Under the pieces are notes generated by a model, which worked only from the letters and a program-made list of their open reading frames with translations, was not told the DNA's origin and ran no database searches. The position numbers and the translations under genes are program-made. A stretch of 64,000 nt of DNA from Ceratorhiza oryzae-sativae (Eukaryota; Basidiomycota; Agaricomycetes; Cantharellales; Ceratobasidiaceae), in the NCBI GenBank assembly GCA_030998015.1, contig JARWMV010000020.1, positions 124,001 to 188,000 of the forward strand. Direction: 5' to 3'. Position 1 is the first letter of the stretch; each line of letters begins with the position of its first letter. Positions 11,418 to 43,716 of this stretch are shown one piece after another.

Positions 11418-12184
11418 TGTTATGACCCGCCTAGCAGACATAACCTAACAACCGAATATTGTACAGATTTATGGCATTTTTCCCGAAGTGGAACAAACCA
11501 TAAACAGGATCACGTGATCTCAGCGCTTACCCAACGATTAAGCACTGGTGGTTACCCTGAACTCGCTCCAGCGTTTCTCTCCCATGTTACCTGGAGCGAG
11601 GAGCGAGTTGTCACGTGATCTTGGCGCTTACCAACGATTAAGTGCCGGTGGTTACCCTGAACTTGCTCCAGCGTTTCTCTCCCATGTTACCTGGAGCGAG
11701 GAGCAAGTTGTCACGTGATCTCGGCGCTTACCCAACAATTAAGCGCCGGTGGTTACCCTGAACTCGCTCCAGCGTTTCTCTCCCATGTTACTGGAGCGAG
11801 GAGCGAGTTGTCACGTGACCTCGGCGCTTATCAGCGATTAAGCGCCGTGCTTAAGTCCAAAAGGTCACATGACCCTCGGACCTCGCGCGGCTCTATAAGA
11901 TTCGGAGCCGCACAAACTTAAGACAAACAATTACCTAACCCATAGTACTACATAACCTACACTGCTACTAGAGTGTGCTTAGATAATACCCGCAGCCACC
12001 GCAGCCACAGGTATATAAGGAGGATAAAGCAAGACTGGATGCCTCAGCTTGCTTTATCTGTCAACCACCATAGACCATAGCAAACACTGTAACTAGAACA
12101 CTCAATACATACTGCATAGCACCAAACCGTCAACGCAGCCACTACTTAAGTGCTCCACAAGGGAGCCTCCAGAGGGTCACGACA
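11418..12184 (+). repeat. 5' LTR of B (767 bp) with internal tandem repeats
   Basis: It contains three tandem units of about 100 bp (from about 11,545), each with inverted pieces such as GAACTCGCTCC and GGAGCGAGTT and a TCACGTGA box. The TATA box is at 12,012-12,018. It differs from the 3' LTR in unit number (three against four) and at scattered sites; in the first 135 bp the three differences are all transitions at CpG positions. Confidence 0.92.
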
Positions 12185-12198
12185 TTATAAAGCAAGCT
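12012..12198 (+). promoter_or_regulatory. B promoter and putative self-priming PBS
   Basis: TATATAA lies at 12,012-12,018. About 34 bp downstream, where transcription should start, is AGCTTGCTTTAT (12,046-12,057). Two bases after the LTR end is its exact reverse complement ATAAAGCAAGCT (12,187-12,198). In Tf1-type elements the mRNA 5' end folds back onto the PBS as primer; this layout fits that mechanism. No tRNA-complementary PBS is seen. The start site is predicted, not shown. Confidence 0.7.
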
Positions 12199-12303
12199 CT
12201 TAACTTAACTAGTGGCGAACATAAGTATACTGCACAGATACTAAGGGCTGAGTACAAGAAAACCAGCTAACTCCTGTGATACATAAGAGAACATAAAGAA
12301 ACT

Positions 12304-14133: not shown

Positions 14134-14150
14134 TTGGTCCTACCACTTCC

Positions 14151-17100
14151 ATGTTGGAGGACCCCAATATAACCCCTACCGCAGATGTATGTTACCTCAA
14201 GAAGTCTAGTAATCAATCAATAATATACACTACGGTAGAGGGAATCATGGAACCAGCTAAGACGCTGATTGACTCAGGATCTTCAACCAACTTCATCGAT
14301 AAGGCCTATTCAAGGGAAAAAGGGATTCCAACCACTCCCCTCAAACACAAGAAATCAATTGTGGCCATTGATGGAAATGAAATCAAGGATGCCATAGAAG
14401 AAAGGGCAGAACTAAACATCGAAGTGGAAGGGAAGACACTAAAATGCTCCCTTTATGTAATGACCCTAGGTGACACAGACATAGTCCTAGGGAAAGAATG
14501 GCTTGAAGAAGCAGAACCTATCATAGATTGGAAAGACCTTACCATCTCATACCCAGACGAAATCAAGGCAAGGGCAGCAAGTGAAAGCCTACAAATCCCA
14601 GAAGAATTTAGGGATTTTGAAGACCTATTTGGGGAAGAAGGTTTCCGAGAACTTCCACCCCACCGAGGTAACCTAGACTTCAAAATGGACCTGATCGAGG
14701 GAGCGGAGCTGCCAAAGCCTGCAAAGAGGTACAGTATGTCGCCAGCAGAAACAAAGGCGCTCAGGGAGTACCTAGAGGAGGAACTAAGAAACGGGAAAAT
14801 AAGGCCCAGCCAGTCAGTTGTAGCTGCACCCTGTTTCTATGTGAACAAAGCAGATGGAGGGCTTAGGTTGGTAGTCGACTACCGTAAGATGAATGACATC
14901 ACCAAGCCAGACAGGTTTCCACTTCCAATCCAAATAGAATTGATTGAGAGACTGAAGGATGCAACCATCTATTCAAAAATGGATGTTCGATGGGGGTTCA
15001 ACAACATCAGGGTAAAAGAGGGAGACGAATGGAAAACAGCTTTCAGGACAGGAGAAGGCCAGTTTGAATGCTTGGTCATGCCATTCGGAGTAAAAGAAGG
15101 ACCAAGAACCTTTACCAGGTTCATGATGGAAAAGTTCCGTGATATAATAGACGATTATGTGGTAATCTACATGGACGATGTACTAGTGTTTTCCAGAAAC
15201 AGGGAAGAACACGTACAACATGTCAGGGAAGTGTTAAGAAGAATGAGGGAAAACCACCTCTTCCTCAAACCACACAAGTGTCAGTTCTTTGTGAAGGAGG
15301 TAAGCTTCATTGGAATTGTCATATCCCCAGAAGGGATATCGATGGAAAAGGAAAAGGTAAAGGCAGTTCTAGAATGGCCAGAACCTAACACAGTAAAAGA
15401 AGTCCAAGCCTTCCTAGGCTTCGTGGGGTTCTATAGAAGGTGGATAGAGAAGTTTAGTACCTTAGCCAAACCCCTCACAGATCTCACCCAAAAAGATGTC
15501 AAATTCCTGTGGGAAAGAAAACAACAGGAAGCATTTGAAGCTATCAAAGAAGCAGTAGCAAGAGAACCGGTCCTGATCCACCCAAACCCAAACAGGCCAT
15601 ACATACTGGAAACAGATGCCTCAGGAGTGGCCATGGGGGGGTACTAAGCCAAAAGGGTGATGACAACCGATTGCATCCAATTGCCTTCCTATCGAAGAGC
15701 TTCACCCCACCAGAGAAAAATTATGACACCTACGACAAGGAGTTGCTTGCAATTGTTAGGTCCTTAGAGCACTGGAGGTTATACTTAGAAGGGACAGAGG
15801 AACCTATTGTGATATACACTGACCATAGGAACCTCCAGTACTGGCAAAATGCCCAGATGTGGAATAGAAGGCATGCCAGATGGTATCTCACTCTGGCACC
15901 CTTCAATTTTCAGATTGTGTATAGACCAGGGAAACTCTCACAGAAGCCAGATGCCCTTTCCAGAAGGAGCGACCATGGGGATACCCCTATGGAACCACAG
16001 ATCATGATTCCAGAAGAAAGGTTCATAGGTTTCATGGCAGAAGTACAGGGGAATTTCTGGGAAGAGCTTAAAGAAGCTCAGGAAGAAGACGAATCTATCA
16101 GATCCTTAAGGCTGAGTGTGGCAAATAAAGAACAACTACCGCCCTCAGTACAGAAGGAATTTAGACGGTATGAAATGAAGGAGGGCCTATTAAGGTATGA
16201 CGATAGGCTCTACATCCCAGATGACAAGGACTTGAGGTTGAGTCTCCTTGAGGAGTGCCATGACGCCCCAGTGGCAGGTCATCAGGGACAAGCCCGAACA
16301 CTAGAATTACTATCAAGGGATTACTATTGGCCAGGAATGAAGGCCCAAGTAAACCGATACGTGGAATCTTGTGAAATGTCAAAGAAGCAAAGGACACAAA
16401 CAAGGCACTCCCCTGAAGTCCTTACCAATCCCATGGAAACCATGGGCAGATGTCGCATATGATTTCATGTCAAATTACCTGTCTCAAAGGGGTACGACAG
16501 TATCTTGACAGTTGTAGATCGCTTCTCCGGCAGGCCCATTTTGTACCATGTCTGGAGAGCACCAATGCAGAAGAACTGGCAGAAATATTCATAAGGGAAG
16601 TATGGAGACATCACGGGACCCCAGAAACCACTGTCTCAGAGAGGGCCAACCTTTAACAGCCAATTCCTAAAAGCCCTATACAAAGGAATTGGGACAAAGC
16701 CCAGATTCTCCACTGCTTTCCATCCAGAAACAGATGGTCTGTCGGAAAGGACAAATCAATGGGTAGAAGGGTTCTTAAGAACCTTCTGCAATTATAGACA
16801 AGATGATTGGGTAAAATGGTTACCCATTGCCGAATTCTGCCATAACAACCACGTAAATGCTACAACAGGACAAACCCCATTTGAAACAGTATATGGAAAA
16901 AACCCAAGATGGGTTGTCCGAGAGGGAGAAGAACCATCTGAGGCACCGCTGCAGACAACATGCGTAATCAAATGGAAAAGGTATGGGATGAGGCAAGAGC
17001 CTCAATGGAATTACACCAACAAATGGAAAAGAAAGGGAGGGAATTCAAGGTAGGAGACAAGGTTTGGCTGCTCCTAACAAACCTCTCGTCCAAGAGACCC

Positions 17101-17556
17101 TCCAAGAAACTGGACAACCGAAAAGGGGGGCCCTTTGAAATCACAGAAAAGATCTCATCCCATGCATATCGCCTGGACCTACCTAAAACCATACGTGTAC
17201 ACAATGTATTCCATGTAAATCTCCTCTCGCCATTCACAGAAGATAAAGACTTCCGAAGAAGGCAGGCCAAACCACCACCAATCATAACAGAAAAAGGAGA
17301 GGAGGAATACGAGGTGGACCACATTGCAAATTATGAATGGCGGAATGGCGAGCTGTTTTACCAAATCAGATGGAAGGGCTACGACCCAATAGAAGACACA
17401 ATGGAACGTGCCAGCAAGTTTGCTGACATGAAAGAGGTTCTAAATGACTTGCAAAGGCACTTACCAGACGCACCAATGCCAGTCAAGACAAGTCAGCACT
17501 CAGGTGACTCGAAAGGCAGGCCAAAGAGAACCAAACGAGGATCTGGAAAGCTTTAA
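14151..17556 (+). pseudogene. B pol: protease, RT, RNase H, integrase, chromodomain, frameshifted
   Basis: The first frame, 14,151-15,647, has the aspartic protease motif (LIDSGSSTNF, residue 41), the RT with YMDD, and the start of RNase H (ETDASG). A shift near 15,640 moves to 15,671-16,462 (rest of RNase H, integrase zinc-binding HHCC). Further shifts occur near 16,370-16,960 in the integrase core. The final frame, 16,960-17,556, has the integrase C-terminus and a chromodomain (EEYEVDHIANYEW ... YQIRWKGYDP), placing B among the chromoviruses, which use the chromodomain to direct integration. The frame breaks mean this copy would need help to move. Confidence 0.9.
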
Positions 17557-17950
17557 AAGGAGCCATCCAGGATACCCAAGAAAGGCCAGAGCCTGCTCTA
17601 CTACCTCACTTGCACCACAACACACCTGCGAAACCCCAAAAGCATGCCTTTCGTCACTCAGCCAATCGCACATCCCAACTGTTACACCCCACTTGCCGAA
17701 AATCAGGTGGCCCCACTTTGGCAGCCACCCACCACCAGGCGGCCAGCACCCTACCCTGGCAGGGAAAATCATCCTAAACCAGGGATGTACTGCTCCAGTG
17801 TGGAAGACGCCCAGAGGTACGCTGAACAACTGTTGCCAGGGGCTAACCTAGTGTACATCCCAAAGAAGTTAAGGGATGAAAGGAACTGGATTGACGATGA
17901 CAAGTACCTGGATCCCAGGTTAGGGGTCCTGACATGGCATGGAAGCCGGA

Positions 17951-18327
17951 TGTCATGAACTGACACGCATACATCCACTCTACAATATTTTCTCGATTTA
18001 CTACATTTTATGAGATCATCTTCAAAACATACTTGCCTTTTATGGTATATCTGTATCACGTGACTCAGGGAATGATCCGGACCGGTAACCGAGATGTATT
18101 TCAACTCTGATGTGAAATTCCACAGTTCCGCAGTCGCTTCTACTGCTTCTATCTCTTATCTGTCGTGACTCACTGTACGGACTTGTTTGTTATGATGTGG
18201 CTCGTACTGTGTATATAAACCAGGTCAAGTTCGCAGAGGACTCCTCAAGAACTTGACCTCTCGTCGAATACAAGTTCTTTTACTTTTCTTACTCTTTTCC
18301 TCGTCGCCTGACTTGTCGTCGTCGACA
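17951..18327 (+). repeat. 5' LTR of D (377 bp)
   Basis: It starts TGTCATGAACTGACACG and ends GTCGTCGACA. It holds TCACGTGA near 18,056, TATATAA at 18,213-18,219, and the predicted mRNA start region. No difference from the 3' LTR was found on reading both. Confidence 0.95.
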
Positions 18328-18344
18328 TCAGGTCAAGTTCTTGA
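18213..18344 (+). promoter_or_regulatory. D promoter and putative self-priming PBS
   Basis: TATATAA at 18,213-18,219 is followed 32 bp later by TCAAGAACTTGACCT (18,245-18,259). Its exact 15-nt reverse complement AGGTCAAGTTCTTGA lies at 18,330-18,344, two bases after the LTR end, where a PBS is expected. This matches the Tf1-type scheme in which the folded-back mRNA 5' end primes reverse transcription. The same geometry is seen in B. Confidence 0.75.
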
Positions 18345-19589
18345 CAATCGTAAGTCTCAGTGTCGTCTGGGATACGTCTGGAACACCGTCGGCGTCGTCT
18401 CGAGATAACTCCTCGTTGCCTTCCCCAATCCCACTCCACCTATCCACAGTCACGAGATATCGTTGCCCTATACGCGCCTCTGTGAAACCTTGCATAGCCA
18501 GGTCCCTCACACGTCGTAACAAGCTTCGGTTCTCTAATCTCTTTCGTCAACAAGAGGTGGGGTCGCTCATTGCCCTTAAGTAGCTGAGCAACAGAGGTCA
18601 CCTTCCTATTCCCATAGACTCGGGAAAGGGTCTATTTTTCCTTTTATCTTGCTCTTGCTCGAGTACGTCTCTGACGGAACGCACGGCCCTCAAGTGGCAC
18701 AACCTTTTACAGAAGATCAGCGCTGCCGTCTGTGTGGGTGGTTTGGACACCTATCGATCCACTGCTTCACCCTCAACTCGGTCGAAAGTATCCTTGAAGA
18801 AGCAGGGCACATCGATTTTAACCGAGTAGTAATCGTCAAAGTCCGCCCCCAGAAAGTCGGACGTGCCCAACAAGCCTTTGTCACCGAGCCAGGTGCCCCT
18901 GAGTGCAAGATCTGCCGTCGGCCAAACGCAGCCACCTTCCCCGCGCGCTGCCCTTATTGTCCTAAGAAGGACAAATTCCTCTATTACTACACCATCCCTC
19001 GCAACCAGCTCTAAGCTGGAGAACCTCGGTCAACAGCTTCTTCGTCACCTGCTAAACACTATCGAAAACTTCCAAGATAGGTACCGTTACTACCGGAATA
19101 AGTACGAAGAAACCCGTGAAAAACTTCACGAAGCCGAGGCCCGTTGCGCATACTTAACCGAGCGTTTGCGCGAACACCAGGAGGACTACCTATCCCTCCT
19201 CCAAGACCATCTCAGACTAGAAGCAATAGTCCGAGAAACAATTGAACCCCACGAGTACGCCTTCCCCGTCTTCTCAACGCCGTCAGACCTTCCTCACCCC
19301 ACCTTTCTAAGTGGCACGGGCTCGCCAATTCAGGAAGAAACACCCCTTCCGGCAGCCCAAATCAATTCTTCCCAAGGAAGCCCTCCTTCGGGACCAAACT
19401 AAACTAAAGAAGGTGGAGTGCCCATATCGTTGCCAGGACACCAAAAGCTGGGACTTGGACGACACTTGGTTGAGGTTCGCAGGAATCGGGAACTTCGAAA
19501 TTTATAGACTTGTGAGGGGGAAAGAAATCCTATATTACCAAAACAATCCCCAATTCCCTGTACTTCCGTACCGTCTCCGTCGCCTTTAA
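18341..19589 (+). other. D leader with overlapping open frames (zinc-knuckle and coiled-coil coding)
   Basis: The 1.29 kb between LTR and gag is open in shifting frames: about 18,341-18,583; 18,649-19,014 with a CCHC-type motif CRLCGWFGHLSIHC and a second cysteine cluster (CKICRRPN ... CPYC); 18,863-19,402 with a long coiled coil (RNKYEETREKLHEAEAR); and 19,311-19,589. They could be remains of one upstream protein broken by frameshifts or the exons of a spliced one; no clear splice chain is seen. A nucleic-acid-binding knuckle upstream of gag is unusual. Confidence 0.4.
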
Positions 19590-19613
19590 AAATTTCATCA
19601 AACCTTCTCTGAA

Positions 19614-21005
19614 ATGGCGTCACAACCTCCCGCCCCCGCTTGGGCCAATATGTCTGATGAGGATAAGGTCATCTATATGCTTCGGTCAATGGACGAACTG
19701 CGAGAATGAACCAATAACCTCCAAAACGATATTGGGGACGTCGAACACAATAATAAGACCTATACAGACTCACTCGAAGCAAAACTTACCACAAATCAGA
19801 CAAAGATAGACGCAGATGTGGCTGGATTAGCCACCAACGTCAATAACCTAGTAGGAATGTTAGCCATTCTCCAAACCACTATCACGCGCATTGAAGCGCA
19901 AATCAACACCTCCATGAGTGGCTCAGGAGCGGCTCAAGTATTAGCTTCCTCCAGTACAACCCAACCACAACCAACAGCTCCCGCTCCCTCCGGAGGATCA
20001 ACTGCAAAGGTTAAGATGGCTGCCCCTCAAAAATTTGATGGCACAAAACGAGAGGACGCCATCTCATTCAGAATTGCATGTGCCCGATATATCAATACAA
20101 ACATGAGTGGACACTCAGCTGACCAAGTGGTCGCCTTCATCACCTCTTATCTCGAAGGGTCAGCAGCTGAATGGGTTAACTCGTATGAAGAATTCGAAAT
20201 TCTCAACCCTGGGACTGCGATCCCCTGGCTTCACGATGCCAATTTGTTCTGGCAAGAATTTACTACCCGATATGGGGATCTGAACCGCACCGAAAATAAC
20301 CGTGACAAGTGGCGAAAGTTGAAACAATCCAAGACGGTTCAGGATTACCTCACCCTGTTCAACTTATATTCCACAGGCCTCAACTACAACGATGCCGCCA
20401 TGCGTGACCAGTTCTATGATGGCCTGTCGTCGGACGTGACAGATAGCATGGTGGCCCAAAACTACGACCCCCGCACAAAGACATTCGCCCAGCTCACACA
20501 GCGGGCCCTGGAAATTGACCGCCACCTCATCTCTTTTGGTAGCAAGAGGACATCGCATGGGGGTAATAAGTCCAGCAGCAACAATGCTTCGACTAGCAGG
20601 CCCACAAATAACCCCCAAAGCGCTCCCCAAAAGGAGAAATTCAAGAATGGGGAACGCATATACAAGATTAAAGATGGCAGGGCTGTAAAAGGTCAAATCG
20701 TAGCCATTGGTCCCAATGCGAAGGGCTTCACAGTCCCAACTGTCCGTTACGATGGCAGCAATGCCAACATACAAGAATCCTTCAAAGACATAAAGAAGGA
20801 TAACCATCCACCGGCGGCCCCAAAGGCAAAGGATCCAGACGCAATGGATCTGGATAGCGCAGGAAAAGGAAAAGGAACGAACACCTGCTATAACTGTGGA
20901 GGACGGGGCCATATTGCAGCCAAATGCCCCTCAGCTAAGATGTCAGGATACGAGGCAGTGGTCGAGGATGTAGAAACAACCGACGATGAGTCGGTAAAAG
21001 AATGA
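19614..21005 (+). CDS. D gag with one in-frame TGA
   Basis: The frame starts at ATG 19,614 (MASQPPAPAWANMSDEDK), meets a TGA at 19,707-19,709, and is then open to 21,005. The TGA is most simply CGA changed at its CpG, so this copy would make a truncated product unless a later start is used. The gag core (PQKFDGTKREDAISFRIAC) spans roughly codons 140-310, and a CCHC knuckle (CYNCGGRGHIAAKC) lies near the end at about 20,886-20,927. The stop overlaps the pol start as ATGA (21,002-21,005), which suggests termination-reinitiation for pol. Gag forms the particle and binds the element RNA. Confidence 0.8.
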
Positions 21006-24000
21006 GCTCAAACCATGCCAGGGGGGCGGTCTTGGGCGCTATGTTACAAAATGCGCATAATGAAAATAAAAATATGGAAATGGAATGTATGTCGTTAGGA
21101 AACCAATCACAACTACAGTTTTTCTTCCATGCATTCCCATTGCGCATAACCCCCGAACACAAGTCTGCATATAACATGAAAAAATTTAATGGATGGGCCA
21201 TGATTGACTCAGGGGCCACATCAGTATTTATACATGAAGATTTAGTCAAACAATACCGCATCCCTACCGTCGCCCTAAAAACACCCAAGAAACTGAGGGT
21301 AATCGACGGAAGGGAGATAGACTCTGGGTCCGTGACCCATTACTGCACCTTTGAGTTGTGCATTCAAGAGCACAGAGAGATCCTCAGTGCCTACGTTGTG
21401 AATGTTGGCAAAAATGATTTAGTCCTGGGCATGTCATGGCTCAAATTCCATAACCCCAACATTGATTGGGATGGGAAGGACATGAAGTTCGACTCGCCAA
21501 TATGCCTGAAGCATTGCATCACAAAACCCTTGCACGTGCGTGCAAATGAACCTAAGGAGCTTCAGCTGGACTCCCTAGACTCCCTTCCAACAAAATACAA
21601 AGAATTCCAGAAAATATTCGCTGAAGAAGACGACGTCCAACCACTACCACCCCATAGAAAGTGGGATATGGAAATAGATTTAAAACCAGATGCCAAGCCA
21701 AGGCACGGTCCCATATATAGCGTGGGTGTCAAGGAAGATGCAGAATTGCGCAAAACCTTGGATCGCCAACTGAAAGCAGGGCACATCAGACCCTCAAGGT
21801 CACCCATGGCATCTCCAGTCATATTCGTCAAAAAGAAAAATGGGAAGCTGCGCATGTGCATTGACTATCGGCGGCTAAACGAAATGACTGTCTCCAATGT
21901 GTACCCACTCCCACGCATCAATGATATTGTGGAAACCTTGCGTGGGGCAAAGATATTCACCAAGTTTGACCTAAAGTGGGGTTTCAACCTCATACGAATT
22001 CGGGAAGGAGACGAATGGAAGGCCGCTTTCAAGACCAAATACGGGCTGTATGAGCCCCTAGTCATGCAATTTGGTCAAAAGAATGCACCAGGAACCTTCA
22101 TGGCCATGATCCGAGAAGAGTTCCAGGACATCGAAGGCATTTACGTTGTAATTTACATGGATGACATATTGGTATTTTCAAAAAACCAGGAAGAACACAA
22201 TGAACATGTCAGGGAAGTCCTGCGCCGGCTTCAAAAGGCTGGTTTATACTGTGCCCTGGAGAAATGCGTTTTTGACGTCACCGAAGTGGACTACCTGGGA
22301 ATAGTAGTAACTCCCCAAGGAATTAAGGTAGACCCAGCCAAGGTCGAAAAGGCTGTTGAGTGGCCAACCCCTACAAACCCAACCGAAGTCCTGGAAGGGT
22401 TGGGGTTTGCAAACTGGTTAAGGCACTTTATAAAAGACTTCTCAAAAATCACAAAATGTCTCTACAAACTTGTCAAGAAGGACACAAAGTGGGAATGGAC
22501 AGAAGAAAGGGATCAGGTGTGGAATTTGCTAAAGCAGAAATTGAAAGAAGCACCTCTCCTAATTCAGCCAGAACCCAGCAAACCATTTATCTTAGAAACA
22601 GACGCCTCAGGCTATGCCACAGGTGCTGTTTTATTGCAATATGGAGAAGACGGGATGCTTCACCCAATCTCCTACTATTCCAAAGCAATGGTCCCAGCAG
22701 AAAGAAACTATGATATCTACAACAAAGAAATGCTGGCGATTATAAAAGCCCTCAAACACTGGCGTCACCTACTAGAAGGGGCTGAACACCCGGTAAACAT
22801 TGTTTGTGACCACAAAAATCTGGAATATTGGAAGACAAACCGGCCGCTAAATGGCCGAGTCACACGATGGCATGAGTTCCTGTCCAGGTTTGAATTCAAG
22901 ATTCTATACATCGAGGGGGCAAAGAATGGCCGGGCAGACATACTCTCTAGGCTGTCAAGGCACATCCCTAAAGAGGGGGGTGAGAGCCAAGCTCTGCTGG
23001 CACAAAACCAATTTTTGGAATTAAAATCTCTGCAGCTACAAGCAATCACACCAGACCATGACCTGGAACAACTCATTAGGGATGCTATCCCAGGAGACGG
23101 GCACCTGTCAAAGGTGCTAAAGGCCCTAGATGACAATGAAAAAGTCAAAAACTGGGAATGGGATGAAGGACTTTTACGATACAAGGGCAGAATCTATGTC
23201 CCAAACAACAAAGAACTTCGCAAGCTGGTCATTGAAAGCCGTCACGACAACCCAGCCGCAGGACACCCAGGACAGTTCAGAACATACGAATTGCTAAACC
23301 GCAAATATACATGGTCATCAATGAAAAAATCAGTCAACGAATATGTCACACATTGCGAATCATGTATTAGGAATAAGCACAGCAACCAGGTTCCCCCAGG
23401 ACTCCTAAACCCAATACCAGCACCAGAAAAACCTTGGGAGGAAATTACTTATGATCTGATCACCGGGCTACCCTTGTCAGAAGGGTTTGACACCATATTT
23501 ACAGTTGTCGACCGCCTGACAAAAATGGTCCACTTTATTCCATGTCAATTGGAAGCCAGTGCTATGGACTGCGCCAACCTGTTCCTAACATACGTATGGA
23601 AACTTCACGGGCTACCACGGAAAACAATCTCAGATCGCGGCCCCAACTTTGCATCCAAGTTCCTAAGGCACCTATATAAACGGCTAGACATAAAACCCTC
23701 CTACTCTACAGCATATCACCCACAAACGGATGGCCAGTCAGAAAGGGCTAACCAAGTAGTAGAAGGGTACCTGAGACACTACGTATCAGATCGGCAGGAT
23801 GACTGGGTCTCACTCTTACCCTTGGCCGAATTTGCCTACAACAATGGTGTCAATGCCTCAACCGGCAAATCACCATTTTTTGCAAACTATGGTTTCCACC
23901 CAAGGCTGGCAGTTGGGGACAAGGAGGGACAAGAATTCCCCCTAGCCAACAATCATGCAGAATGGCTCCAAAAGGGCCATGACGAACTTAGGGCAGCCCT

Positions 24001-24532
24001 GGAAATAGCAAACCAGAGGATCAAGGAATACTACGACCAGAAGCATCGGGCTCCTGAAGCTATTAAGGTTGGAGACAAAGTCTGGCTTGATACCAAAAAC
24101 ATACGGACACAGCAGACCTCCAGGAAACTGGCCCACAAAAGAGTTGGACCATTCAGGGTGATAGCACAACATGGCACACATGCCTACAAATTGCACTTAC
24201 CGATAACCATGAAAATACACCCAGTATTTCATGTCTCACTCCTGACCAAATATAAAGACGACCCCTATGGCCGTCAGGTTCCCCCACCACCACCTGTGGT
24301 AACTCCTGAAGGGGAAGAAGAGTTCGAAGTGGAACAGATCATAAAGTCACGATACAACAAAAGATCCAACGTCTTCGAATACTATGTCAAGTGGCTCGGC
24401 TATGACGAACGACAATGGTTAACCTATGACGACCTAGTGAACGCACCAGAACTCATTGCTGACTATGTCAAGTCACACCCAAAGGCACCCCAGGACCCCC
24501 GTGCCTTGAAGGGGGGAAGTGTCATGAACTGA
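21002..24532 (+). CDS. D pol polyprotein (protease, RT, RNase H, integrase, chromodomain), intact
   Basis: An uninterrupted frame of 1,176 residues. In order: aspartic protease with DSGAT at residue 69; RT with YMDD at 385-388; RNase H with TDASG near 533-537; integrase zinc-binding HHCC (about 750-786); DDE core with Asp 818, Asp 878 and Glu 914 (35 residues between the last two); an integrase C-terminal domain; and a chromodomain at about 1,106-1,160 (FEVEQIIKSRYNKRS ... YYVKWLGYDE). The last codons run 13 bp into the 3' LTR. All catalytic residues I can check are present. It is the reference for judging decay in gypsy A. Confidence 0.95.
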   Translation: MSSNHARGAVLGAMLQNAHNENKNMEMECMSLGNQSQLQFFFHAFPLRITPEHKSAYNMKKFNGWAMIDSGATSVFIHEDLVKQYRIPTVALKTPKKLRVIDGREIDSGSVTHYCTFELCIQEHREILSAYVVNVGKNDLVLGMSWLKFHNPNIDWDGKDMKFDSPICLKHCITKPLHVRANEPKELQLDSLDSLPTKYKEFQKIFAEEDDVQPLPPHRKWDMEIDLKPDAKPRHGPIYSVGVKEDAELRKTLDRQLKAGHIRPSRSPMASPVIFVKKKNGKLRMCIDYRRLNEMTVSNVYPLPRINDIVETLRGAKIFTKFDLKWGFNLIRIREGDEWKAAFKTKYGLYEPLVMQFGQKNAPGTFMAMIREEFQDIEGIYVVIYMDDILVFSKNQEEHNEHVREVLRRLQKAGLYCALEKCVFDVTEVDYLGIVVTPQGIKVDPAKVEKAVEWPTPTNPTEVLEGLGFANWLRHFIKDFSKITKCLYKLVKKDTKWEWTEERDQVWNLLKQKLKEAPLLIQPEPSKPFILETDASGYATGAVLLQYGEDGMLHPISYYSKAMVPAERNYDIYNKEMLAIIKALKHWRHLLEGAEHPVNIVCDHKNLEYWKTNRPLNGRVTRWHEFLSRFEFKILYIEGAKNGRADILSRLSRHIPKEGGESQALLAQNQFLELKSLQLQAITPDHDLEQLIRDAIPGDGHLSKVLKALDDNEKVKNWEWDEGLLRYKGRIYVPNNKELRKLVIESRHDNPAAGHPGQFRTYELLNRKYTWSSMKKSVNEYVTHCESCIRNKHSNQVPPGLLNPIPAPEKPWEEITYDLITGLPLSEGFDTIFTVVDRLTKMVHFIPCQLEASAMDCANLFLTYVWKLHGLPRKTISDRGPNFASKFLRHLYKRLDIKPSYSTAYHPQTDGQSERANQVVEGYLRHYVSDRQDDWVSLLPLAEFAYNNGVNASTGKSPFFANYGFHPRLAVGDKEGQEFPLANNHAEWLQKGHDELRAALEIANQRIKEYYDQKHRAPEAIKVGDKVWLDTKNIRTQQTSRKLAHKRVGPFRVIAQHGTHAYKLHLPITMKIHPVFHVSLLTKYKDDPYGRQVPPPPPVVTPEGEEEFEVEQIIKSRYNKRSNVFEYYVKWLGYDERQWLTYDDLVNAPELIADYVKSHPKAPQDPRALKGGSVMN

Positions 24533-24896
24533 CACGCATACATCCACTCTACAATATTTTCTCGATTTACTACATTTTATGAGATCATCTTCAAAACATA
24601 CTTGCCTTTTATGGTATATCTGTATCACGTGACTCAGGGAATGATCCGGACCGGTAACCGAGATGTATTTCAACTCTGATGTGAAATTCCACAGTTCCGC
24701 AGTCGCTTCTACTGCTTCTATCTCTTATCTGTCGTGACTCACTGTACGGACTTGTTTGTTATGATGTGGCTCGTACTGTGTATATAAACCAGGTCAAGTT
24801 CGCAGAGGACTCCTCAAGAACTTGACCTCTCGTCGAATACAAGTTCTTTTACTTTTCTTACTCTTTTCCTCGTCGCCTGACTTGTCGTCGTCGACA
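24508..24896 (+). repeat. Polypurine tract and 3' LTR of D
   Basis: A purine tract ending GAAGGGGGGAAG stands directly before the LTR and would prime plus-strand DNA synthesis. The 377-bp LTR (24,520-24,896) starts TGTCATG and ends GTCGACA, followed by the CCGGA duplication. Confidence 0.92.
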
Positions 24897-25495
24897 CCGG
24901 AAGCCAACAACGAGAAATGCCTTGTTAAGAACACCGATGTATGTTGTCGACAATATTGTGGGACCAACAGTCGACGTGGTGACCAAGGCAGCAAGGCAAC
25001 AGAGGAGGGCCACAGGCCAAATACCAGACAGAGGGGACTGGGAGGTGGAGTGCTGGGCAAAGGCACTGTTGGAGCAGTGGAAGCTGGCACTGGCGGCACC
25101 ATATGTGGGACTGCTTGAGGCCACTACCACTGATGAAATGTTTACTGCCATCAGGTTGAAGGAAGCAAACTTGGCCGACTTCCGTAACTGGGTGAAGGTA
25201 CACCCAAACCTGCATGGTTACGACACAGATATGTCAAGCCTCATGGCAAGCCTGGAGTCCCTGGTGGTGAAGGAGGAGGAGCCGAGAGTAACAATAAAGG
25301 AACCAACCCCAGACCCAGCCCAAGAGGGAGTCCAAACGGATTGGGCCAAATGGGAGGATGAGCTGGCAGGCGCCTTGGAGGAAGTGCCCCTGCTGGCCCT
25401 GGAGCCCCTGTGATTATCGGGCCTATCACATGTTTTTTTTGGAATGTCTTAAGAATAATTTTCATAATCATATAATAATACATTTCAAAATGTTC

Positions 25496-27478
25496 CTATT
25501 TTTTCTTGCCCTTGAGGGGCCGGGCATAGGGTTTTTTTGCCTTCTTATCCTTCCTAGTAGTACGGGCCGCAGAACCACTGGCCCGGTTCTCAGGCAACAG
25601 CCAGGGGGCCTCCCCCCCTGGGAAGTCGGCCATGTAGTTCTGGAAACACCCAGAACCAGACGCTGCAAAGGGCGAAGCCTCATCAAACAAGGGAGCAGAG
25701 CCCTCCTTGAAGAATTCGGCAAGAGCGGCCTGGTGAGACTGCTCCTTAGAGAAGCTGTGCCAGAATTTTGCAGGACTCCGGCACCTGCAGCAAGACTCCT
25801 GTGCTTTTTGGCCATTCTGGCACTGGCACTGGCACTGGCATGCCAGTTGCCGGAGACTGTGCCAGAATTCTGGCAGGTGCAGGAGCATGCCAGAATCCCG
25901 GGACTCCGGCAACTGGCTATGGTCAGAACTCACCACATCAGATTGTGTGGTAGCTCATTAGATGCGCATAAGAGAGAGCTTTCCAACGATATAAGGCACG
26001 TTTCATAAGAAATTGATTCTGGCAAATTGTATGCAGTTCTTTTGTTCGGGCCTTTGTGGCCAATATTTCCAGGGCCACAAAACTCACCACAATCTCTTGC
26101 AAAGTAGCTCATTAAACGCGCAAAACTCTGTAGATCACAAATATGTCATTCGCTCTGCGCAGAAAATTCAATAACGCATAGCTTGCACCAGATTAGTGCC
26201 CAGGAAATATTCTGGGAAATGCACACATGCCATTTCACCACAAAGAAAGCTATTTGAAGCTTATATGACCAGCTAGCCTTTTTTCTGAGCTTAAGAAACC
26301 CCTACTGACATAATATCTAGTCAATTCATCAACAGGATGACTATGAACTGGGGTGTGTGCAGACATCCTCACTGTCACCCCAGCAGAATCACTGCACATG
26401 GTTGGAAATTTAAGTTATAAGCTTGTTCCAGATGTTTCAGGTATCTGAAATAGGGCAATAAGTATCCCTGAAGCTGTCTGTGATACTCAGAAAGACAGAA
26501 TTGCACTGTGTGGGTGTCCATGGCGCATTTCAGGGGGTTTTCAGCATCAGGGCACTGTTCCCCCAGTTTCACTGGCTAAAACACCTTCAATCAGGCTGAT
26601 TTTTGGTATATAGAGTCCTTATAGTAGTGCGTATCGACTCCGCGCAAGGGAGCAAGGTTTGCATGGCTGGTTTCACTAGCGCCTGTGGCACTGTTCAGGG
26701 GCTTCCTCCCTTTATATTGCTCATAACTTTCGATAAAAGCGTTCGTTTATGATGAAAGTATATGCATTCGATTCCTCTCAATGAGACGAGTCGATTGGTA
26801 TGTATATCACGCCAATTGGAGCTCAGGATAGCGAGCTTCAACATCTGTGCATCCCCCTGAATATTCTTCCTAGATAAATCTGCGCCAATACTGCTCATTT
26901 CTTAGCCGTTTGTAATCAAGTACAGTACAATCGGATCCGCTGAATTTTGCACATTTTATGAGTGCTTGACATACACAATCTGAGATGGACATGTACAGGT
27001 GATGATGTGCCAGCATGCAGGTATGCAGGTATGCCAGTACTGCAGGACTCCACCCAGGACTCTGGCACCCTTGAGGCTATTCTGGCACCTGCACTGGCAA
27101 CTGGCACACCGGAATCTGCCAGAATTTTAGCCAGAATTCTGGCAAGTTCTGGCTGCAGGAGCCTGGCACAGCACCTCTACCGCTCCTCAAAGGACTTGTA
27201 GTCCTGATCAACGAGTGCCCAGACACGCTCAAGGGTGGCCTCATGGGCCCGACCATCAAGGAGGATGCGCTCTTCTACAGAACAAGTTAGCTATGTGAGA
27301 ACGACAAAGAATGAACACACGTACCTGGCACCCCACAGAAGAACCAGTCCCCAACACCCCTGTAGAAGTCCTCAAGGGCGGCGTTGCAGACTGCGTCGCA
27401 ATAGGAGCAGTAGTCCCCCTCAGGAAGGGACCAACAAGTACAGTTGAGGGGATTATAGTTAAGGGTGATGACACGCAT
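25496..27478 (-). pseudogene. B ORF3: spliced minus-strand cargo gene, split by a hAT-like element
   Basis: Exon 1 runs from ATG 27,478 (MRVITLNYNPLN) to 27,325; an upstream ATG at 27,619 is also in frame. A 50-bp intron (GTACGT...TGTAG, 27,324-27,275) leads to exon 2, which is broken after 27,188 by the element 25,747-27,179 and continues in frame to TAG at 25,496. The protein would be near 170 residues: a cysteine cluster (CTCW, then CSYCDAVC), a charged helical middle, and a very basic tail (RKDKKAKKPYARPLKGKKK) like a nuclear-localisation or nucleic-acid-binding tail. It is convergent with ORF2 and divergent from Rep. No family is recognised. The basic tail and ambisense layout recall capsid genes of small ssDNA viruses, but no capsid fold can be claimed. 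Confidence 0.5.
25747..27179. mobile_element. hAT-like non-autonomous transposon, 1,433 bp, in B ORF3
   Basis: Terminal inverted repeats TAGAGAAGCTGTGCCAG and TAGAGGTGCTGTGCCAG (reverse complement) are flanked by 8-bp duplications CTGCTCCT (25,739-25,746) and CCGCTCCT (27,180-27,187), which differ by one transition at a CpG. Subterminal CCAGAATTCTGG palindromes are shared with the element at 4,249-6,489, as are pieces around ATTAAACGCGCAAAA. No transposase frame is seen. Confidence 0.85.
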
Positions 27479-27658
27479 AATTGAATAGAGGTTGATGAAA
27501 AGGCCCACAAAGGAGGGGAGATTATATCGACAAGGCAGGACCATAACCTGCACAAACACCAAAACAAACTTGACTGGAAGACACAACATCATGTGACCCC
27601 CAACTGAGCAGAACAACAAGATGCCATGTGACCTAGCTTGGTCACATGAGCATTTGCG

Positions 27659-28048: not shown

Positions 28049-28206
28049 TCACCGAAATAAGGTCATGTGATCACAACAAACGAAAGACGGAGTCATGTGA
28101 CGATCAAAATGGACCTTGCAGCTTATATAGACAAGCACAAGGCCCGAGATAACCCGCACTCTCATGCTCTCTTCCCAGTCCCCAAATACCTCTAAAACTG
28201 TAAACA

Positions 28207-29493
28207 ATGCTAAGCAGAAATGGATCGAATGCAGCAACACCCCAGCCAAGCAGATCAAGCAAAGGGTGGAGGTTGGCGTCGCCATTGCCAACGCCCTTGG
28301 TATCAAGCCGAGCCCCCTCACCCACTTCTATGCGGCCTATGCCGATGGATCAAGGGTCCGAAGAGCTGACCGAAACCGTGCCGGCCCCTCGGTTCCGCGT
28401 CCAGACCAGGGTGGTGCTGCTGACCTGGTCGAAGCTATGCGATCAGCCCTCAAGTGGGCTCGTCACCCGATACAAGGTGTTCTGCCACCAACGGCCAAAT
28501 CATTGGGTGACTTTGGCAGTGGTGGAATGCCACAACCCCGAGGAACCAAACTATGACCCGGCCCGGCCCCTCCATGTCCATGCCCTCTCCATCAGTCAGG
28601 AGCGGAAGGGCGGCTGGAACACCCAGAACACCCGGTTCTGGGACTTTGAGGGGCAACACCCCAACATCCTGCCGAAGGACCTCAAGGATGGACCAGGAGG
28701 CAACCCTGCAAGGGAGGCTTTCAACTACCTCTGGAAGGATGTCGGAGCTAACAGCGAGGAGGTAGAGGAGCTGATGGCAGGGGACCTGACCTCGGAAAGG
28801 TTGGAGGAAATCCTGGTGAAGGGAAAGGGCAGGAAAAGGTCGAGGGCGGAGGCGGACCTGGAGGACGGGGCGGAGATTGTTGCCTTGGTGACAAAAAAAG
28901 AGTACTACCAGGCATTCAAGCGCCTGCACCCCCTCCAGATGGTGACAACGTGGAACTCGGTACAAGCATATGCTGAGTACACGTATAAGGAGGACTGGGG
29001 ATGCATGCCTGCAATCCCAGTGGAGTTGGAAGCCCCAGAAGACCAGGCGCACATTGACAGGGCAGACCGATGGTTTGCAGAAGAGGCTGAGAAGAGAGGG
29101 AGGGGCGTGCGCCATTGCATCCTGGTGATCGAAGGCAAAACAGGAACTGGGAAGATGGCGTATGCGCGATCCAAGGGCTCCCATAGCTGGATGTGCAACG
29201 TCTGGAACATGGGGAATCTGTCAGAGGACGCCGACATCTGGATCCTGGATGACATGGTCCAGTCAAACAGGAAGTACTCGCTCAAAGCCCTGAGCCAGTA
29301 CGAGGCAGACTTCACAGGCAGATATGCTCATGTGAAGTCAATGAAGGTACAACTGACGGTGATCCTGGGGAATAGCCGGTCGGCCATAATGAAGTGTTGG
29401 ACAGACATAGAGGGGGAAGAAGGGGACCTATGGGTATCCAAAAACGTAGACTGGGTATACTCAGGAGGGAAGCCATTTTTTGTTTTTCCTTAA
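28207..29493 (+). CDS. rep: Rep: HUH endonuclease-SF3 helicase of CRESS-DNA-virus type, cargo of B
   Basis: An intact 428-codon frame. The N-terminal half has the rolling-circle motifs: motif I (VVLLTW, about residues 69-74), motif II HVH (123-125), a geminivirus-type segment FWDFEGQHPNI (144-154), and motif III YLWK with the presumed catalytic Tyr 174. A basic patch (KGKGRKRSRAE, about 205-215) follows. The C-terminal half has Walker A GKTGTGKM (310-317), Walker B WILDD (345-349), and motif C LGNS (387-390). Walker A ends in Met where Ser or Thr is usual, and the old copy B2 shares this. Such proteins nick an origin and unwind DNA in rolling-circle replication. It lies inside an LTR element, on the gag-pol strand. 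Confidence 0.85.
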   Translation: MLSRNGSNAATPQPSRSSKGWRLASPLPTPLVSSRAPSPTSMRPMPMDQGSEELTETVPAPRFRVQTRVVLLTWSKLCDQPSSGLVTRYKVFCHQRPNHWVTLAVVECHNPEEPNYDPARPLHVHALSISQERKGGWNTQNTRFWDFEGQHPNILPKDLKDGPGGNPAREAFNYLWKDVGANSEEVEELMAGDLTSERLEEILVKGKGRKRSRAEADLEDGAEIVALVTKKEYYQAFKRLHPLQMVTTWNSVQAYAEYTYKEDWGCMPAIPVELEAPEDQAHIDRADRWFAEEAEKRGRGVRHCILVIEGKTGTGKMAYARSKGSHSWMCNVWNMGNLSEDADIWILDDMVQSNRKYSLKALSQYEADFTGRYAHVKSMKVQLTVILGNSRSAIMKCWTDIEGEEGDLWVSKNVDWVYSGGKPFFVFP

Positions 29494-29588
29494 AGAATAA
29501 AAATAAATTATCTTTGTATAAGCTGTTTTATTCTCAGACCATGTGTCAAGAAGTAAGCTTAAACAAGGAAATAAGCAAGGAGAAAGTA

Positions 29589-29713: not shown

Positions 29714-29776
29714 ACCTTTTAGAAACTTTTAGAACCCAGAAAAGAAACATGCCTCAAGATCCCCCAAGACATGTCC

Positions 29777-30672
29777 AAAGGGGGGGATAATGTTATGACC
29801 CGCCTAGCAGACATAACCTAACAACCGAATATTGTACAGATTTATGGCATTTTTCCTGAAGCGGAACAAACCATAAACAGGATCACGTGATCTCGGCGCT
29901 TACCCAACGATTAAGCACTGGTGGTTACCCTGAACTCGCTCTAGTGTTTCTCTCCCATGTTACCTGGAGCAAGGAGCAAGTTGTCACGTGATCTCGGCGC
30001 TTACCCCATGATTAAGCGCCAGTGGTTACCCTGAACTCGCTCCAGTGTTTCTCTCCCATGTTACCTGGAGCGAGGAGCGAGTTGTCATGTGATCTTGGCG
30101 CTTACCCCATGATTAAGCGCCGGTGGTTACCCTGAACTTGCTCCAGCGTTTCTCTCCCATGTTACCTGGAGCAAGGAGCGAGTTGTCACATGATCTCGGC
30201 GCTTACCCAACAATTAAGCGCTGGTGGTTACCCTGAACTTGCTCCAGCGTTTCTCTCCCATGTTACCTGGAGCGAGGAGCAAGTTGTCACGTGACCTCGG
30301 CGCTTATCCAGCGATTAAGCGCCGGGTGCTTAAGTCCAAAAGGTCACATGACCCTCAGACCTCGTGCAGCTCTATAAGATTTGGAGCTGCACAAACTTAG
30401 GATAAACAATTACCTAAGACCTAGTACTATATAGAACCTATAACTGCTATAGACAGCGCTTAGGAAAGAGGGGCCACCGCAGCAACCGCAGTCACATGTA
30501 TATAAGGGGAGTAAAGCAAGACTGAATGCCTCAGCTTGCTTTATCTTGTCAACCACCATAGACCATAGCAAACACTGTAACTAGAACACTCAATACATAC
30601 TGCATAGCACCAAACCGTAAATGCAGCCACTACTTAAGTGCTCCACAAGGGAGCCTCCAGAGGGTCACGACA
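29777..30672 (+). repeat. Polypurine tract and 3' LTR of B (882 bp)
   Basis: AAAGGGGGGGATAA (29,777-29,790) precedes the LTR 29,791-30,672. The LTR has four of the roughly 100-bp tandem units against three in the 5' LTR, which accounts for most of its extra length. It ends GGTCACGACA, followed by ATCAG. Confidence 0.92.
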
Positions 30673-31132
30673 ATCAGCTTGTGGGTGGAAAGCTGTAGTA
30701 AGTGATCTCTGAATTCCAACCAAAGAGGCTAAGTGTTCCCAAAAGGCTCCTGTCCACCTAGAGTCTCTGTCAGTAATAACCTGCCTTGGAAGGCCATACT
30801 TAGTCCATATATGCACATGGAATAGTTTGGCTGTCTCTTCCTCATTTATAGAAGTATTGCAAGGGATAAAGTGCACATACTTAGTTAATTTATCAACTAT
30901 AGTTAGTATGGCATTAAATCCATTGCTAGGAGGAAGATCCATCATAAAATCCATGGTTACTCCTTCAAAAGGCTGACTAGGAATTAGAATAGACTGAAGA
31001 AAACCTCCTTGTCCATGTCTTTTAGGCTTAGGCTTTTGACAAATATCACAAGTGCACACATATTCCTTAATGACTTGCACCATCTTAGGCCAGTAGTAGG
31101 TGGAAGCTACTTTATTGTAGGTCCTATGGTAG

Positions 31133-41239: not shown

Positions 41240-43588
41240 GCTTGCTGCCCAATATGAGGTGTTCTGCTCCCACCAGCCCAATCACTGGGCAACTTTAGCC
41301 ATGGTCAAACAGCACAACCCAGAGGAGCTGAACTACAACCTGACCCAGCCCCTGCACATGTTATGGATCACTAACATTTTCTATTATTTTAGTCTGCTCT
41401 GCCAACCTCAAGTGATGCCTCTGTAATTTTTCTTGAAATTAAATGAATTTGTATGCATCTGAAATTGTACTATTTGTGTTCCATTAAATACTACAAAATA
41501 TCCTCTTTCCAACACATATTTTATCATGATTTTATCTTAAGAACTCAGAGAGATATAGAGGTTGCAATATTTCCTCTAATCAGGAGATATTGATTACAAC
41601 ATTGCACCGCTCATATCTTGGCAACCGCTTACGCTATCAAAGCGATCTTGTGCTCTATCGATAGCTAATCTTCGGCAGTATCTGCTGCCCGAAGATCGTC
41701 GCGATCCACTGGATCCTCGCGCCGGAATGGCCCGAAGATCATTAGAATCTTACTGGACCATCAATTAAGATCTAATGACTCCAGTGAGTCAAGAGAGCCT
41801 TCCAAATTGATCCAGAAGTTTCTCTGACTCACTTTATGACTCACTGAGATGTAGCCTCTGTTCATTACATGTATATACTATGACAATATGATCTACAAGC
41901 CAATAGCAGGTCTCAGATGCATCAATGGCTTTGATCCACACTGTGTCTTTACTCTTTTATCCTATACTGGGCTAGGGTGTACCCCAAGTATAGCAGTACC
42001 CTCTTTTGATGATTGCACTGGCATGCATGTATCTATTTGGCTCTGGAATGCCTTCCTCAGGGTATAAAAGCACCTCCTCTGAGGCCCTTCCAGACCACCT
42101 TCACTCCTTTACTCAACCCAGACTGGTTATTGGTTTCCTTTTCTCTTTCTATTTCTCTTGTCTGTGTGTGATTTCTTATATAACTAGTACTGAGGAATTT
42201 AGTACCATATTAGTTATATACTGTCTGAGTCATTGTATCTTATATACAGAGTTATATAAGGATACAATATTGCCTGATTGAGCATGACATTAAGTACCAG
42301 CTATTAGAGGAAATCTAAGTACCTGTAGCTGAGGAAGTACACGCATTAGGCAGCCCTCCATCTATCCTATAAGCTATCGCTTAAGTCTAGTATTAAGATT
42401 AGTATCAGTTAGTCCAAGCAACTAGGGCTGAACTACATTTAAGATATCTAAGGGAACCTGACCATAGTAGTCTTGCTCTTTATACCTATAAATTAGTGAG
42501 TTTACACTGTGAAAGATTAAGACTACCTTGAGTGTTACTTGATTGGATTGCAACTACTTTGAGCCTTCTTACTCTAGTCTAAGAAGTATTGAGTACAATT
42601 AGTGTATACTAACATATATATATTTGCTTAAACTCTAGATATTCAAGTGTACCCTGACCCATAACAGCATGTCCACACCCTCTCCATCAGTCAGGAACAG
42701 AAGGGTGGGTGGAACACCCAGAATGTGGGGTTCTGGGACTTCAAGGGACAACACCCCAACATATGGCCCAAAGACCTCAAGGACAGGCCAGGAGGCAACC
42801 CAGCAAGGGATGCCTTCAACTATCTCTGGAAGGATGTTGGAGCTAACAGCAAGGAGATAAAGGATTTGATGGCAGCGGACATGACCTTGGAAAGGTTGGA
42901 GGAGATCTTGGTGAAGGGAAAGGGTGGAAAACAGTCAAGGATGGAGGCAGACTTGGAGGACAGGACAGAGATTGTTGCCTTGGCAACAAAACAGGAGTAC
43001 TACCAGGTGTTCAAGCGCCTCTGCCCCCTCCAGATGGTGACAACATAGAACTTGGTATGAGTGTATGCCAAATACACATACAAGGAAGACTGGGGTTGCA
43101 TGCCTGCAATCCCTGTGGAGTTAGAGGTCCTGGAAGACCAGGAGCACATCGACCAAGCAGACAGATGGTTTGCCAAGGAAGTTGAGAAGAGGGGAAGAGG
43201 CATGCACCATTGCATCCTGGTGATAGAAGGAGAGACTGGAACAGGGAAAATGGCATATGCACAATCCAAGGGCTGCCACAGCTGGATGTGCAATGTGTGG
43301 AATGTGGGGAACTTTTTGGAAGACACCGACATTTGGATCCTGGACAACATGGTCCAGTCAAATGGGAAGTACTTGCTCAAGGCCCTGAGCCAGTATGAGG
43401 TGGACTTCACAGGCAGGTATGTGCATGTGAAATCAATGAAGGTATGGCTGACAGTTATTCTGGGTAATAGCTGGTCAGCAATCATGAAGTGTTGGTTGGA
43501 CATAGAGGGGGAAGAGGGGGACTTATGGGTATCAAAAAATGTAGAATGGGTGTACTCAGGAGGAAAACCATTCTTTGTATTCCCTTAG
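41240..43588 (+). pseudogene. Second Rep copy (element B2), truncated and broken
   Basis: Segments 41,240-41,358 and 42,667-43,588 match the B Rep from its N-terminal third to the stop, with the HVH motif, FWDFKGQHPN, YLWK, Walker A GETGTGKM and Walker B WILDN, where the second Asp is lost. The N-terminus is cut off at the E LTR, a solo LTR splits the coding sequence beside HVH, and a TAG at 43,046 replaces a tryptophan codon. CpG is almost gone. The copy shows that Rep was already part of this retroelement family before B inserted. Confidence 0.88.
41359..42666 (+). repeat. Solo 1.3-kb LTR in the Rep copy of B2
   Basis: A 1,308-bp plus-strand LTR with TATAAAAG near 42,064. Flanks GCACA (41,354-41,358) and GCATG (42,667-42,671) are explained by one ancestral GCACG whose CpG decayed to CA on one side and TG on the other. 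Confidence 0.92.
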
Positions 43589-43716
43589 AATAATTTACTG
43601 TATTGTACATCTTCTGCTACACCCATCCAAACAGTTAGGGCATCCTGAGAAGAAGCAGACAACTCCTCACCCCTGAATAACCTCCACAACAAAGAAAAGA
43701 AAAACAATCTCATGTA

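Follow-up and report, generated by a model that had tools for sequence, protein, structure and literature searches.

The window analysed here, a 64,000-nt stretch of contig JARWMV010000020.1 from Ceratorhiza oryzae-sativae (positions 124,001 to 188,000), contains a long terminal repeat (LTR) retrotransposon, element B, that belongs to a family in which a Rep-like gene is a resident component under purifying selection. Element B is classed as a Ty3/gypsy chromovirus that has, in addition, a Rep-like gene; it spans positions 11418–30672 and is bounded at both ends by the 5-bp duplication ATCAG. The Rep frame (28207–29493, + strand) is uninterrupted from ATG through stop over 428 codons, and is located downstream of pol and upstream of the 3' LTR, within the perfect duplication. 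Gypsy elements pick up genes, and virus Rep genes occur in fungal genomes. A previous reading of the window from sequence alone (the sequence-only reading) had noted the intact frame with its rolling-circle and superfamily 3 (SF3)-like helicase motifs, its place in the element and the frameshifted gag-pol of the same copy, and had regarded Rep as cargo of a mobile chromovirus. The frame, the motifs and the location are confirmed, and the pol fragments of this copy indeed lie in different frames.

Rep is present at a minimum of 98 genomic places: the scoring of 98 among 252 candidates gave 99 rows, two of them for a single copy, so that the number is a lower bound. Internal stops, mostly TGA, are absent from 33 of the 99 rows, some of which are partial. 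Twenty Rep-anchored regions of 10 kb, drawn mostly from the better-scoring rows, display the same arrangement: a B-type LTR lies ~300 bp downstream of Rep in all 20, and pol lies upstream on the same strand inside the region in 18. The converse comparison, of 85 of the 89 pol rows (four fragment rows were omitted) with all 99 Rep rows, finds for 53 of the 85 pol places a listed Rep in the same orientation no more than 16 kb downstream, 41 of them within 6 kb; by contrast, Rep is upstream at one place and on the other strand at two. For 14 of the 32 pol rows with no listed Rep, a region was taken at the predicted Rep place. Thirteen of these pol-anchored regions have Rep where expected, whole in eight and interrupted or cut in five (interrupted by A-type element sequence in L041, L045 and L047, reduced to its first 515 bases in L043, and running off the stretch in L044), and in 10 of the 13 the stretch also includes the LTR after it. 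The remaining region, L052, is the only one of the 14 with no Rep match of at least 100 bases.

Complete elements were sought in five 5' flanks, the fifth of which is a contig start with no LTR match. The other four (C251, C57, C32 and C87) yielded elements with both LTRs, Rep, and perfect 5-bp duplications (CCTGA, CACAA, TGCTA and CCAGT), so that paired LTRs and a duplication are found in the window element and in four others. The LTR pairs of the four are 97.6–98.8% alike. Rep thus has a fixed position in the family, and whole Rep-carrying elements have spread, which bears out its description as cargo of a mobile chromovirus. The fixed position in both sets of regions rules out an isolated insertion with junctions of its own; neither such junctions nor copies that as a rule lack Rep, the outcomes that the sequence-only reading had set against itself, were found across the 34 regions.

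The coding sequence of Rep has been kept by selection. Departures from the majority letter in 21 aligned Rep copies are dominated by C-to-T and G-to-A changes (733 of 1008), of which 579 fall at CpG, and an internal stop is absent from 13 copies and present in eight. Rates were therefore read outside CpG, with every column that is CpG in any copy masked and L006 excluded from the Rep rates. The ratio of nonsynonymous to synonymous differences per site (pN/pS) of Rep is 0.08 between the main group and a second subfamily (L023, L026 and L028; 54 pairs), and 0.21 within the main group (153 pairs), a value that rests on few changes, about four and five per pair. The reverse transcriptase gives 0.09 (six copies, 15 pairs; six of the 12 pol copies were dropped for want of a gap-free alignment). 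The low between-group ratio of Rep, similar to that of the reverse transcriptase, shows that purifying selection has acted on Rep. Constraint is uneven along the protein, with between-group ratios of 0.14 for residues 61–215 and 0.059 for residues 216–428, whereas the first 60 residues display no constraint in the Rep frame (a ratio near 1 over all sites, and zero silent changes outside CpG). The corresponding pS is 0 over codons 1–60, 0.11 over codons 61–215 and 0.42 over the remainder. In the two second-subfamily copies whose stretch includes gag-pol, this part is ~99% identical to the window. A diverged Rep part next to a near-identical gag-pol suggests that the 3' modules predate the other parts of the element, and that the family is probably a mosaic.

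All named relatives of Rep are from Ceratobasidium, the nearest with ~71% identity, and the nearest pol is that of Ceratobasidium AG-Ba (73%). Rhizoctonia solani is present among the 120 of 2675 pol matches listed, and absent among the Rep rows. As judged from separate protein matches rather than genome context, this distribution would fit pol and Rep having moved together. Between selection and a recent source, which the sequence-only reading had offered as alternatives for the intact frame, the low ratio and the ~71% relatives favour selection.

The Rep protein contains the motifs VVLLTW (residues 69–74), HVH (123–125), FWDFEGQHPNI (144–154) and YLWK (174–177), followed by a P-loop (310–317), WILDD (345–349) and ILGNS (386–390). 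The motif chain was scored in order against the genomovirus motif tables printed in PMC10821283 and PMC4459443. It reaches 77.7 bits, 10 s.d. above 1000 shuffles (mean 20.2, s.d. 5.7, maximum 41.4), and pieces of pol proteins used as a control (n = 315) reach at most 35.5 bits. The score is carried by the geminivirus Rep sequence (GRS) motif WDFEGQHPNI, located between motifs II and III (20.0 bits), and by Walker A (16.8 bits), neither of which is reached by any of 300 shuffles. Motifs I, II and III of the HUH nuclease are all in order; shuffles reach I in 6% and II in 2% of cases, and Walker B in 5%. Motif III (YLWK, at 174) and motif C (ILGN) are present and individually non-significant, and the chain placed both elsewhere. 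All 21 copies share the two histidines, the motif III tyrosine and lysine, the lysine of the P-loop, the two Walker B aspartates and the asparagine of motif C. The window copy deviates at one conserved Walker A residue that is kept by 20 of the 21. A hint of the Pfam family Gemini_AL1_M, below the cut-off, appears in nine of the 31 members of the Rep alignment (best value 0.001, in P0009), and sits between the nuclease and helicase motifs in the two members in which its position was checked. The motifs thus support a protein in which an HUH nuclease would be joined to an SF3 helicase.

The LTRs of the family contain tandem units of ~101 bp, or ~113 bp in the second of two LTR subfamilies that differ by ~15% over the LTR. 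In 22 LTRs, one unit is found in five, two in two, three in eight and four in seven. The number is unequal between the two LTRs of all five complete elements (3/4, 2/1, 4/3, 2/4 and 4/2), a pattern to be expected from slippage, from unequal exchange or from rolling-circle copying. A unit contains a hairpin composed of ctcgctccag, a 19-nt loop and ctggagcgag, with a second GAGCGAG directly behind it, which places GGAGCGA within the right arm and again after it. Folding z-scores are near −4 for two of the three LTR units folded, and −2.5 for the third. Of 97 units, 95 were compared, two being omitted for different spacing: TGTTAC closes the loop in all 95, and the full loop ending CCATGTTAC is found in 79. 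Over 75 bases of the unit, frequent changes are mostly at CpG, and the four variable columns outside CpG comprise two just before TGTTAC, the first base past the loop, and one outside the hairpin. The unit pattern occurs at 667 places in the genome with up to three mismatches, compared with none for the reversed pattern. A scan of L021 and L026 (10 kb each) for perfect hairpins with a stem of at least 8 and a loop of 6–22 returned the LTR unit hairpin as the sole one whose loop has at most one mismatch to NANTRTTAY.

In circovirus and geminivirus origins, the nonamer stands next to the right arm with iterons beside it, and the layout of the LTR unit is similar. Compared with an origin of the CRESS (circular Rep-encoding single-stranded) DNA viruses, which has a NANTATTAC-like nonamer and nearby iterons, the unit has the stem-loop and the repeated GGAGCGA, and CCATGTTAC is one mismatch away from NANTRTTAY. 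Among published genomovirus nonamers are TAATGTTAT and TAATATTAC. The LTR hairpin resembles a Rep origin, a resemblance that alone would be weak evidence. An origin-like unit is present in both LTRs of all five complete elements, which fits with a release of DNA between LTRs, as this requires a hairpin in each. A separate candidate origin between the antisense frame upstream of Rep and Rep itself was rejected: no perfect hairpin with a nonamer-like loop is found there, and the folding of the two 136-bp repeats is not clearly stronger than that of shuffled sequence (z of 0.39 and −1.33).

Based on these results, we propose that the family took up a genomovirus/geminivirus-like Rep, kept it as a regular selected gene, and uses it to replicate element DNA via the LTR hairpin, a proposal that we consider quite possible though somewhat short of an even chance. 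Rep would be made from its own promoter and would bind the repeated GGAGCGA in the LTR. It would then nick the hairpin loop within TGTTAC, presumably between TT and AC, by analogy with the cut position of known Reps, and copy by rolling circle either circular cDNA or an integrated copy between its two LTRs. Transcription and integration could then draw on the additional DNA copies as templates, and the element would thereby amplify at the DNA stage as well as via RNA. Viral Reps release circles from tandem viral genomes. For an element with its own Rep and an origin-like site in each LTR, the boldest of the simple readings is LTR-to-LTR copying by Rep: a two-stage element that would integrate by reverse transcription and integrase, and multiply as DNA through a captured initiator, with each integrated copy able to be released as a circle between its LTR origins. 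This stronger version is more tentative, and we hold it as possible but rather doubtful. The DNA-replication or circular-DNA function suggested in the sequence-only reading is one with which the origin-like hairpin fits, and element B plausibly works like a Rep-driven replicon inside a retrotransposon.

Several observations weigh against this proposal. No Pfam family scores above its cut-off for Rep, sequence searches against solved structures returned nothing credible, and the structure predictions (AlphaFold2, with 31 and 35 sequences) were unusable, with mean pLDDT values of 36 and 39. No relative of Rep was found among viral contigs, with either a profile or a metagenome relative as query. 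The usual loop is one mismatch off the CRESS nonamer, for which the rough chance in a 19-nt loop is ~0.1; this loop is longer than is typical of known origins, and two other hairpins in the scanned stretch of the window, one of them in the nested insert, have loops equally close to the nonamer. The LTR units, which also carry CACGTG, may simply be promoter repeats, and their similarity may come from concerted evolution of tandem repeats. A single unit is all that 5 of the 22 LTRs hold, and the window copy combines its altered Walker A residue with a broken pol. The binding and nicking by Rep, its transcript and the circles are predictions from sequence.

Further searches around Rep gave a similar picture. 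Neither NCBIfam nor PHROGs contained a credible match, and a plasmid search gave none above threshold. A degenerate DNA pattern for the geminivirus-type motif found five stretches on viral contigs, none of them Rep-like. Genome-wide, nothing exceeded the cut-off for Gemini_AL1_M or for Gemini_AL1, the latter result being uninformative since 14 control genomes were equally blank. Because the Pfam scores are below the cut-offs and the fold predictions are of low confidence, the gene is filed as Rep-like and not as a member, although membership in the CRESS family appears likely from its sequence. Neither a recognizable capsid gene nor separate Rep junctions, as expected of an integrated CRESS virus, were found: ORF X and the antisense exons gave no credible Pfam match, and Rep is enclosed by the LTR element in the Rep-anchored and pol-anchored regions. 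The CRESS-type identity given to Rep by the sequence-only reading therefore holds for the ordered motifs, and is not matched by a significant family or fold.

The missing family and structure matches, the low-confidence folds and the two of seven motifs that are non-significant alone would also be expected if the frame encoded an unrelated P-loop protein that mimics the motifs of a CRESS-type Rep. This explanation is unlikely, in view of a motif chain 10 s.d. above shuffles, a GRS motif that none of 300 shuffles reproduces, and a Gemini_AL1_M hint in the right place. Less probable still is that Rep is a passive hitch-hiker, caught once and amplified only through amplification of the element. 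Many of the differences between copies are CpG transitions (579 of 1008), as in decaying repeats, and eight of the 21 copies have internal stops; nevertheless, the pN/pS of 0.08 outside CpG between subfamilies, with a pS of up to 0.42 in the helicase part, and the conservation to Ceratobasidium are at odds with mere decay, and passive hitch-hiking was rejected on the low ratio.

A selected Rep may instead act without any replication of element DNA, by binding DNA and so regulating the LTR or the Rep promoter, or as an aid to cDNA import, integration or repair. Selection and the fixed place are explained equally well by such a role, the LTR units contain CACGTG and are placed where the promoter probably is, and the region before Rep has repeats of its own. 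By contrast, all 21 copies agree in the catalytic nuclease and helicase residues named above, and constraint is stronger in the helicase half (0.059 versus 0.141), neither of which mere binding would require. We regard another role of this kind as a real possibility, if a doubtful one. Rep may alternatively defend the host by blocking or poisoning related single-stranded DNA (ssDNA) viruses or plasmids, with the element profiting through its host. PMC6338049 discusses an antiviral role for the viral helicases of insect retrotransposons, and Rep is intact in many copies. Host-benefit selection would, however, be hard to sustain on one gene in ~100 dispersed copies, and no related virus was found in the viral collection, which may hold few such viruses, since the pattern search found none in it either; defence is accordingly quite improbable. 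Replication of element DNA through the LTR hairpin remains the preferred reading.

The features of element B and of its surroundings are compiled in Table 1. Gag, reverse transcriptase, RNase H, integrase and chromodomain follow each other in gypsy order. RNase H, the integrase zinc domain and the chromodomain of pol were recognized by Pfam, and protease and reverse transcriptase by similarity to relatives; the nearest whole proteins are reverse transcriptase plus integrase proteins named Tf2. A 1147-residue pol frame is kept in two (L025 and L026) of five other copies inspected. As in chromoviruses, a putative primer site, recognized by self-complementarity, and a polypurine tract adjoin the LTRs. 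Tf1 uses self-priming, and the primer-binding-like stretch of element B suggests a Tf1-like mode. The sequence-only reading made no mention of two insertions nested between pol and Rep, namely element A and the ~1.4-kb insert, or of the altered Walker A residue of this copy. The truncated Rep copy is followed by B-type LTR sequence at 43706–44220 and 45548–45850, interrupted by a 1.3-kb repeat.

Table 1. Coordinates of element B, its components and a second Rep copy in the window
Feature	Position	Strand	Remarks
Target-site duplication ATCAG, left copy	11413..11417	.	
5' LTR of element B	11418..12184	+	three 101-bp units ahead of TATA-like stretch
One origin-like hairpin, 5' LTR	11562..11600	+	stem ctcgctccag/ctggagcgag, loop ends CCATGTTAC; this unit folded
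Primer-binding-like stretch	12185..12204	+	12 bases complementary to stretch starting 12046 within LTR
gag	12759..14133	+	capsid domain, Retrotrans_gag 2.9e-13; zinc-knuckle part in another frame here
pol	14121..17556	+	several broken frames in window copy
Open reading frame (ORF) X, first part	17557..17950	+	some other copies have ~300 codons
Nested chromodomain element A, without Rep	17951..24896	+	identical LTRs; inserted into ORF X of B
ORF X, second part	24897..25413	+	
Antisense frame, last part	25413..25746	-	divergent from Rep; basic C-terminus
Insert of ~1.4 kb, approximate extent	25746..27190	.	absent from the compared copies that cover this place
Antisense frame, first part	27190..27592	-	
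TATA-box-like stretch	28123..28130	+	34 nt ahead of upstream ATG
Overlapping 130-codon frame	28164..28556	+	product matches N-termini of some Ceratobasidium Rep gene models
Rep	28207..29493	+	HUH-type nuclease and SF3-type helicase motifs
Polypurine tract	29777..29789	+	just ahead of 3' LTR
3' LTR of element B	29791..30672	+	
Tandem 101-bp units, 3' LTR	29883..30387	+	
Origin-like hairpin	30036..30074	+	10-bp stem, 19-nt loop ending CCATGTTAC, then GAGCGAG
Second origin-like hairpin	30137..30175	+	
Target-site duplication ATCAG, right copy	30673..30677	.	
Second, truncated Rep copy	42668..43593	+	83% DNA identity, two internal stops

The region between pol and Rep holds two further frames. ORF X (4935–5837 in L021), located between pol and the antisense frame, is open in some copies and has no Pfam match. 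The antisense frame (window 25413–27592, minus strand; 5924–6513 in L021) consists of two exon-like pieces, with no credible Pfam match, that have a cysteine-rich start and a basic end; a GTACGT...AG interruption in its first part looks intron-like. By eye, an end resembling that of the antisense frame is fused to Rep in gene model P0027. The divergent layout of Rep and this frame recalls CRESS genomes. The TATA-like stretch before Rep, TTATATAG, is found in all 20 other copies compared. The overlapping frame starts 43 nt before Rep, and is conserved to Ceratobasidium in its own frame, with FYAAYADGSRVRRADR corresponding to FFAAYADGSRVRRAER or RRADR in relatives (best E-value 5.9e-18, P0011), while over the same stretch the Rep frame shows no constraint; the overlap may represent an exon coding in two frames, or an additional start of Rep.

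In the window copy, the LTR pair reaches no more than 93.2% identity despite the perfect duplication, and by eye the two look like different subtypes, which suggests template switching or later change. Just upstream of the 3' LTR, at 29598–29710, lies a stretch containing what resembles a tRNA B-box (GGTTCGAGTCC); ARAGORN called no tRNA there, and an Rfam search with a tRNA scan, as well as a bacterial promoter scan with a model not meant for fungi, gave nothing useful. Elsewhere in the window, a ~1.3-kb repeat occurs in both orientations (1–445, 6690–8006, 33027–34337, 39937–41241, 41346–42671 and 44222–45548; 92–97% alike), and a 1.9-kb array of ~138-bp units occupies 57514–59380.

With a selected Rep inside an LTR-retrotransposon family, a single element combines two strategies of replication. 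Should the LTR hairpins be the site of Rep action, the family would represent a natural retroelement with a DNA-replication stage; this could explain the unstable number of LTR units, and a fungus would offer a test system for exchange between retroelements and ssDNA viruses. Retroelements with viral helicases or other additional genes are already in print (PMC6338049, PMC5408684). In searches of the open-access literature, from which subscription papers are mostly missing, the titles and abstract beginnings listed showed no rolling-circle initiator described as a standing gene of an LTR retrotransposon.

A comparison with known systems places Rep closest to those of Genomoviridae and Geminiviridae (Cressdnaviricota), which have the same motif order, LLTW(S), HUH, GRS WDFEGxHPNI, YxxK, Walker A GxTGTGKTxxAR, uuDDu and UxxN (tables in PMC10821283 and PMC4459443, motif definitions in PMC11052389). 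Unlike these, the window Rep has W and not Y in motif I, attains no significant family score, and lies in an LTR retrotransposon with no recognized capsid gene. As to the host element, chromodomain elements of the Tf1/Tf2 type likewise have gag, reverse transcriptase, RNase H, integrase, a chromodomain and, as B does in its 12 bases, a complementarity of the self-priming kind, whereas B has in addition ORF X, the antisense frame, Rep downstream of pol, and the LTR hairpin units. Extra genes beside gag-pol are also kept by families of bdelloid rotifer LTR retrotransposons (PMC5408684), and an orchid Ty3/gypsy element has captured a demethylase frame (PMC9289625); in the accessible text, no rolling-circle initiator is named for either, and the words 'rolling' and 'ssDNA' are absent from that of PMC5408684. 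For Tuber melanosporum, Liu et al. 2011 (PMC3198968) describe a geminivirus-like transposon through which a Rep-like gene has become multicopy in a fungal genome. The carrier there is a DNA transposon, which has 37-bp terminal inverted repeats and transposase frames, lacks an obvious duplication, and contains an interrupted Rep. By contrast, the family described here is an LTR retrotransposon with 5-bp duplications, whose Rep is open in many copies and under selection.
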